Source: Candidatus Pyrohabitans sp. JdFR-17 (GTDB lineage: Archaea > Hydrothermarchaeota > Hydrothermarchaeia > Hydrothermarchaeales > BMS3B). Taken from it: a stretch of 39,160 nucleotides of DNA. Location of the stretch: positions 1 to 39,160 of the forward strand of contig MTME02000094.1 of the NCBI GenBank assembly GCA_002011115.2. Reading direction: 5' to 3'. The translations under genes were made by a program, and so were the position numbers. The notes below the pieces were generated by a model, which was not told the origin of the DNA, searched no databases, and saw only the letters and a list, made by a program, of their open reading frames with translations. This document shows, in pieces, positions 11,220 through 38,648 of the stretch (position 1 is its first letter; every line of letters begins with the position of its first letter).

Positions 11220-11279
11220 ATGTCGATGATGAGTGATGGGCGAACTGAGCTGTGATGAGCCCTATGAGCGCTGAGACAT
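11220..11279 (+). ncRNA. C/D box sRNA (2'-O-methylation guide)
   Basis: All four boxes sit in canonical archaeal spacing: C box ATGATGA (11226-11232), 12-nt guide GTGATGGGCGAA, D' box CTGA (11245-11248), 3-nt spacer, C' box GTGATGA (11252-11258), 12-nt guide GCCCTATGAGCG, D box CTGA (11271-11274). Flanks ATGTC (11220-11224) and GACAT (11275-11279) close a terminal stem, so a K-turn can form at both ends. It lies between ADH synthase and a convergent receiver gene, and directly abuts that gene's stop codon. It may be processed from operon read-through. Targets are discussed as a finding. Confidence 0.88.
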
Positions 11280-17183: not shown

Positions 17184-17256
17184 GCGGGCGTGGTCTAGCC
17201 TGGCAAGACCTTGGCCTTCCAAGCCAATGACCCGGGTTCAAATCCCGGCGCCCGCA
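17184..17256 (+). tRNA. tRNA-Gly (anticodon UCC)
   Basis: A full cloverleaf is present: acceptor GCGGGCG/CGCCCGC, anticodon stem TTGGC/GCCAA with loop CTTCCAA giving UCC, T arm CCGGG-TTCAAAT-CCCGG and discriminator A. CCA is not encoded and no intron is seen. Confidence 0.96.
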
Positions 17257-17261
17257 TATCC

Positions 17262-17297
17262 AGGGGAGGGGAATTCCCCTCCCCTTAGGTTAACCCC
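17262..17297 (+). terminator. Perfect 24-bp palindrome after tRNA-Gly
   Basis: A perfect GC-rich palindrome spans 17262-17285 (AGGGGAGGGG-AATT centre-CCCCTCCCCT), six bases after tRNA-Gly. It can form a long hairpin or cruciform and may act in termination or 3' processing. There is no T-run. The following TTAACCCC (17290-17297) is complementary to GGGGTTAA at 17417-17424, enclosing the hairpin element at 17339. Confidence 0.5.
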
Positions 17298-17337
17298 ACC
17301 CCGACAGGGATATTAAGGAAAAATAATAAAGAAACAT

Positions 17338-17395
17338 GGCGGTATTGAGCATTAGCGAAATACCGCAATCTGATGATCAAACCGTCTGCGGTTTG
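17338..17395 (+). ncRNA. tRNA-linked hairpin-linker-hairpin element, copy A
   Basis: Stem 1 is GCGGTATT (17339-17346) with AATACCGC (17359-17366) around a 12-nt loop. The linker AATCTGATGATC spans 17367-17378. Stem 2 is AAACCG-TCTG-CGGTTT (17379-17394), extendable by the C17378-G17395 pair. The same layout recurs on the minus strand at 38419-38467 with the linker identical and stem 2 changed on both sides (CG/CG to TT/AA). It lies 82 bases downstream of tRNA-Gly in the same sense. I know no named family that matches; the type is my inference. Confidence 0.6.
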
Positions 17396-38394: not shown

Positions 38395-38412
38395 TACGCC
38401 GGGGAAGGGATT
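38395..38412. repeat. Duplicated 3' end of tRNA-Ser
   Basis: TACGCCGGGGAAGGGATT is identical to 38492-38509, which covers the tRNA-Ser acceptor 3' strand, part of the T arm and two downstream bases. Similarity continues for GAACC after a one-base difference. The copies are direct repeats 97 bases apart, on the 3' side of the tRNA, as expected when an element inserts into a tRNA 3' end. Confidence 0.8.
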
Positions 38413-38418
38413 CAGAAC

Positions 38419-38467
38419 CAAACTTCAGAAAGTTTGATCATCAGATTGCGGTATCTTACGATACCGC
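38419..38467 (-). ncRNA. tRNA-linked hairpin-linker-hairpin element, copy B
   Basis: Read on the minus strand: stem 1 GCGGTATC-GTAA-GATACCGC (38467-38448, closed by a GNRA-type tetraloop), linker AATCTGATGATC (38447-38436), and stem 2 AAACTT-TCTG-AAGTTT (38435-38420, extendable by one C-G pair to 38419). The linker and the TCTG loop are identical to copy A at 17338, and stem 2 differs by two compensated pairs. It lies 26 bases downstream of tRNA-Ser in the same sense, between the tRNA and the duplicated tRNA end. Confidence 0.6.
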
Positions 38468-38493
38468 TATTATCAGCTGGTTATCAAGGTTTA

Positions 38494-38577
38494 CGCCGGG
38501 GAAGGGATTTGAACCCCTGAGCTCTTGCGAGCACCAGATCTCGAGTCTGGCGCCTTTCCGGGCTAGGCTACCCCGGC
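38494..38577 (-). tRNA. tRNA-Ser (anticodon CGA)
   Basis: This class II tRNA has acceptor GCCGGGG/CCCCGGC, anticodon stem CCAGA/TCTGG with loop CTCGAGA (CGA), a long variable arm (TGCTCGCAAGAGCT), a T arm with TTCAAAT and discriminator G, the serine identity base. CCA is not encoded and no intron is seen. The 3' end is duplicated downstream. Confidence 0.95.
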
Positions 38578-38648
38578 AGAGTTTCTAAAACACCAATCTT
38601 TACCGAGGCAATAGTTTTTTGTTACCTCTTCCCTGTATATTCATTTTT

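Follow-up and report, generated by a model that had tools for sequence, protein, structure and literature searches.

The hairpin–linker–hairpin sequence which occurs twice in the window (the whole stretch of 39,160 nucleotides analysed here from Candidatus Pyrohabitans sp. JdFR-17) is probably a miniature, gene-less and non-autonomous mobile element of the Hydrothermarchaeota, about 55–170 bp in length. It belongs to a repeat family with covarying stems, copies of which are bounded by direct repeats of their target, are missing from the corresponding sites in sister species, and have in places entered several times at one tRNA gene. The copies are short, dispersed, multiple and without genes, and filled and empty sites with target duplication are found, which are properties of miniature elements in the broad sense; no autonomous partner with the same ends was met in the loci read.

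Copy 1 lies behind tRNA-Gly(TCC) (17184–17256, + strand; ARAGORN and Rfam), which is its insertion target. It consists of hairpin 1 (17339–17366, +) in which GCGGTATT (17339–17346) pairs with AATACCGC (17359–17366) to form an 8-bp stem, the conserved linker AATCTGATGAT (17367–17377, +; from the sequence and family alignment), and hairpin 2 (17378–17395, +) in which CAAACCG (17378–17384) pairs with CGGTTTG (17389–17395) to form a 7-bp stem with the loop TCTG at the right end of the element (both hairpins are from the sequence, fold and covariation). The preliminary description had given both stems and the TCTG loop as we find them, and the linker it reported as 12 nt is present with a length of 11–12 nt, the last C being paired. 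Copy 2 is on the minus strand behind its target tRNA-Ser(CGA) (38493–38578, –; ARAGORN), where the model match covers hairpin 1, linker and hairpin 2 (38417–38469, –; 70.4 bits, E 3.6e-13). As had been noted, it has the same linker and TCTG loop, two pairs of stem 2 are changed on both strands (CCG/CGG to CTT/AAG), and both copies are 3' of a tRNA and in the tRNA's sense. The hairpin-1 loop is 12 nt in copy 1 versus 4 nt in copy 2, and the minimum-free-energy fold contains both hairpins in each case (relative to shuffled sequence, copy 1 has z = –2.8 and copy 2 has z = –3.5).

Three features were missing from the preliminary description. The first is a left module belonging to copy 1 (17260–17336, +) consisting of a GC-rich hairpin, CCAGGGGAGGGG-AATT-CCCCTCCCC, and then a stretch to a GGAAACA-like end; this upstream hairpin module is present in many copies and recurs before hairpin 1 in L004/L011, L013, L014, L042, L047, L049 and others (we rejected the idea that it is a separate element, as it occurs only with element copies or relics). 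The second is a repeat of the tRNA-Ser 3' end, so that copy 2 sits between the intact end, which includes the left direct repeat GGTTCAAATCCCTTCCCCGGCGTA (38492–38515, –; from the sequence), and a second tRNA-Ser 3' end, the right direct repeat GGTTCTGAATCCCTTCCCCGGCGTA (38395–38419, –; alignment score 19 versus at most 10.5 in 100 shuffles). The third is the existence of many further copies, some of them away from tRNA genes. Copy 1 has no direct repeat left and neither have some other copies, which counts against the mobile-element reading.

A covariance model built from six copies of the window's own genome identified 11–12 copies in that genome, 12 and 14 in the sister species G001 and G004, and 3 in G002, 12 in G011, 5 in G010, 3 in G015 and 2 in G017, while G006 and G009 have a single copy each. 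This gives 65 matches over ten Hydrothermarchaeota genomes, including Ca. Pyrohabitans jungbluthii JdFR-16, and three species of a single genus carry 11–14 copies each. The search returned no match outside one order, a wider model run over 23 genomes of the class gave no further host, and viral contigs held no exact match to the core pattern. Rfam at the gathering score returned only tRNAs and one C/D sRNA elsewhere, plus one chance match under relaxed conditions, and has no family for the element, in agreement with the earlier statement that no described family of this form was known; our literature search, in which subscription journals were thinly covered, likewise found no paper on such elements.

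The family is enriched behind tRNA genes without being strictly tied to them. No genome of the genus is more complete than G001, and here six of about nine element loci (a count which includes tRNA-Glu at a contig end) lie no more than 160 nt downstream of tRNA genes (n = 47), and chance is excluded as an explanation because less than 0.5% of the genome falls within stretches of this kind; a decayed copy was also found behind tRNA-Pro in this genome. The copy was in the tRNA's sense in all 25 of the tRNA-linked cases tested. Behind hairpin 2, most tRNA sites show the 3' end of their own tRNA a second time, from the T-loop onward, and a tRNA-end repeat, usually of 15–29 nt, was found for 19 of 25 tRNA-linked copies. 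Such repeats were seen at 8 of 36 tRNAs having no model match, but for at least six of these eight another tRNA behind the gene or a divergent element accounts for the repeat: the Asp genes have a tRNA-Lys behind them whose end is similar, and L060 and L052 carry divergent elements. Different elements are found in tandem at one tRNA in L043 and L024. We note that L056 and L060 (G011), both behind tRNA genes, are variants without hairpin 1 and the linker, in which a stem resembling hairpin 2 is retained together with the junction GTTCT(T)GAATCC and the repeat of the tRNA end.

Within the genus, roughly one quarter to one third of the element loci are located at ORF ends or between genes. The duplications at protein-gene ends are 16–52 nt long. 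L056 and L058 have 16–17 nt repeats, apparently at ORF ends, and G015 has copies where histidine kinase genes end, at the stop codon, with 45–52 nt repeated. In G011 and G017, copies lie 5' of tRNA-Val and tRNA-Leu with 16–22 nt of the tRNA 5' end repeated. It should also be noted that L031 and L038 (G015:C173 and C98) carry different histidine kinase genes and agree in element type and in the right flank as far as a contig end, which could reflect variation between strains, recombination at the element or a branch in the assembly. Two divergent copies in G010, L041 and L035, are close before ATG starts, one of them directly after a TATA-like stretch, and may be located in 5' leaders. In L010, L036, L046 and L016, another small palindromic repeat, GGAAGCTCCGCTTCCGG..GTGACGAAGTTACCCTGAGCAG, was seen within or beside some element copies.

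Comparison with sister species provides empty sites, which have a single tRNA end. The tRNA-Val(CAC) of G001 is joined directly to a flank which, in G004, comes only after element and repeat. The tRNA-Lys site is filled in G000, G001 and G004, G002 and G003 are empty both there and at Gln(CTG), Gln(TTG) and Leu(TAA) are both empty in G001 and G003, and the Gly(TCC) site of the window's copy 1 is empty in G002, G003 and G004. Precise loss could mimic an empty site once, but hardly across six sites. Together with the tRNA-end direct repeats and tandem accretion, these sites support the earlier guess of a mini-element targeting tRNA genes. In L037 (G004:C5:1015–4067), the element that the window has behind tRNA-Ser instead follows the end of a catalase-peroxidase-like gene and CCGGCGTA, which is a short remnant of the tRNA end. 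Here a larger mobile element seems to have been inserted after tRNA-Ser, separating it from the element.

The element is structured with true covariation. In the 65 aligned copies 95.6% of cells are paired and both sides change at 12 of 15 pairs, with 161 compensated cells versus 61 in shuffles (the alignment was fitted to the structure), while controls with slid positions were only 32–48% paired. Whole-stem replacements can be read directly, as in GCACTACACC/GGTGTAGTGC in L056 and GTGCTATC/GATAGCAC in L024, and the hairpin-1 loop is freely variable across the family. The selection for pairing claimed from the two copies in the window is thus borne out by the covariation of the whole family beyond shuffles, although two copies alone are no proof of it. 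Among orthologous tRNA-Lys copies, a G-C pair of G000 is replaced by A-T in G001 within flanks that are about 92% identical, and hairpin 2 is exchanged as a whole type between L009 and L020 within flanks that are 95% identical. The latter suggests gene conversion, and resident copies seem to be kept paired either by this or by selection.

Covariation of this kind might also be expected of a cis-acting or small regulatory RNA on the tRNA transcript, involved in 3' processing or termination or released as an sRNA by tRNA 3' cleavage, in which the hairpins are kept for function and the copies were spread by duplication. Judged from the sequences, this is unlikely as the primary explanation, even though pairing is retained in orthologous copies, including the tRNA-Lys change between G000 and G001, and the copies share the sense of the tRNA. 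The element is absent at the same tRNAs in sister species and has no conserved T-run, contrary to the role in tRNA 3' processing or termination first suggested for it and to an intrinsic terminator, and copies are also located in inverted clusters, in intergenic positions and at the ends of ORFs. Furthermore, the tRNA-end duplications require insertion anyway. Wobble pairs (13) are also not more frequent than A-C mismatches (14), which counts against an RNA; the balance leans towards wobble once damaged copies are left out, and the numbers would fit selection on either RNA or DNA. A resident RNA function of the element is nonetheless possible because orthologous copies keep their pairing, and a small RNA cleaved from the tRNA transcript may also occur.

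Returning to the mobile element, we propose that a constant part made up of hairpin 1, an 11–12 nt linker and hairpin 2, with a third hairpin module upstream in many copies, would insert in one orientation at tRNA gene 3' ends and less frequently at tRNA 5' ends, the ends of protein genes or between genes. Insertion would leave the target whole on one side and duplicate its last 15–29 nt on the other (45–52 nt at kinase genes). The joining would be carried out by a site-specific enzyme provided in trans, for which a tyrosine recombinase of the kind used by tRNA-borne archaeal elements is the most likely candidate, and this enzyme or a partner would recognise the hairpins and linker. Att-like direct repeats at tRNA or gene ends are present, as in tyrosine-recombinase elements, and there is no integrase in cis. 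A normal integrase requires a matching core in its element, and the finding of one element type at many tRNAs, each with its own end duplicated, stands against a plain integrase. Many tRNA types share GTTCTGAATCC at the right junction, which looks element-borne and mimics the T-loop, and which is compatible with a recombinase core as well as with T-loop priming.

None of the enzymes we searched for in 20 genomes (Cas1, reverse transcriptase, Y1 transposase, TnpB and two families of tyrosine recombinase) was found in every host, a result limited by incomplete genomes and by enzymes since lost. The tyrosine recombinase PF00589 had no match in G006, G011 and G017, the last of which is only 62% complete, and G011 has 12 copies with no tyrosine recombinase match. 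We observed integrase-type islands directly behind tRNA-Thr in L096 (G000:C38), tRNA-Glu in L033 (G002:C52) and tRNA-His in L086 (G001:C6), and L096 and L033 have a common left end, CCTT(A/G)GCCA(C/T)C, with a long hairpin after it. The element was considered as the right end of the tRNA-Thr and tRNA-His islands and this was rejected, as there is no element match on those contigs. TnpB is abundant in G005 and G007, both without copies, and had no match in G001, G002, G004 and G011, all with copies; this distribution gives no support for an IS200/IS605 or TnpB-linked element, in which TnpB or TnpA would accompany the copies.

The constant right end and variable left end of the element, the varying duplication lengths and the occurrence of the element-borne GTTCTGAATCC at many tRNA types in two families could also be accounted for by retroposition, in which an RNA 3' end, GUUCUGAAUCC, matching the T-loop would prime reverse transcription at nicked tRNA genes, staggered nicks producing the duplication and 5' truncation the variable left end. 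We regard this as improbable, as 19 of 20 genomes, including all members of the genus, have no reverse transcriptase match, and left ends also vary by later deletion or conversion (seen in the Leu-GAG and Lys orthologues). There is similarly only a small chance of a more novel outcome, either a SINE-like archaeal retroposon with an RNA 3' end mimicking the T-loop and self-priming at tRNA genes, or some other undescribed mechanism acting on a two-hairpin substrate with long tRNA-end duplications.

If the mobile-element interpretation is right, then a very small element makes use of tRNA ends, and the same core has served at many different tRNAs, unlike in classical integrase islands. The set of filled and empty sites could be used to test the joining enzyme and the role of the hairpins. 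The case would also show that hairpins which covary and lie behind tRNA genes need not be tRNA-processing RNA and can instead be mobile DNA.

Amongst known systems, archaeal C/D box sRNAs are brought to mind by TGATGA in the linker and CTGA in the loop, which resemble boxes C and D. This identity was rejected, as the box letters are not conserved in the family (TGTTGATG, TGTGGACG and CTGC loops) and there is no Rfam match; an unrelated match to the sR3 archaeal C/D box sRNA family lies elsewhere in the window (11222–11276, +; 46.2 bits). A K-turn in hairpin 1 was also rejected, with the symmetric TGA/GAA loop not conserved between copies, as was a hammerhead, for which only CTGATGA is found and the GAAA partner is not in place. 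REP/BIME sequences and REPINs moved by RAYT (Y1) transposases (PMC3116915, PMC2817692) are likewise short, non-coding, hairpin-forming and dispersed between genes, at times in alternating-orientation clusters like those of L009, L020, L022, L048 and L051. In contrast to their hundreds of copies, the element has about ten, with two unlike hairpins and a conserved linker, and it targets tRNA ends and duplicates the target; a Y1 transposase is missing in 18 of 20 genomes, PF01797 being found only in G007 and G016, which both lack copies.

Casposons have duplications of 1–27 nt with a median of 15 and target the 3' ends of tRNA and aEF-2 genes (PMC4046053), and share part of their targets and the duplication length with the element. 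Mobilisation by a casposase or other Cas1-type integrase would fit these published values well, and repeated insertion at one target recalls spacer uptake. We consider this very improbable, as the element, unlike casposons, has no terminal inverted repeats (the ends were read by eye), cas1 or polB, the genomes G001, G002, G004 and G006 have no Cas1 match, and the kinase-gene repeats of 45–52 nt exceed any casposon duplication reported in that work. A further likeness is to the archaeal integrative elements and islands of tRNA genes (PMC6563490, PMC8371274, PMC4383910), which target tRNA 3' ends, in rare cases tRNA 5' ends, and also the 3' ends of protein genes (PMC6563490), and which resemble the element in targets, insertion sense, the regenerated tRNA with a displaced 3' fragment, and tandem accretion. 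They differ in being kilobases long, whereas the element described here is 55–170 bp, carries no genes and uses one core at many tRNA types.
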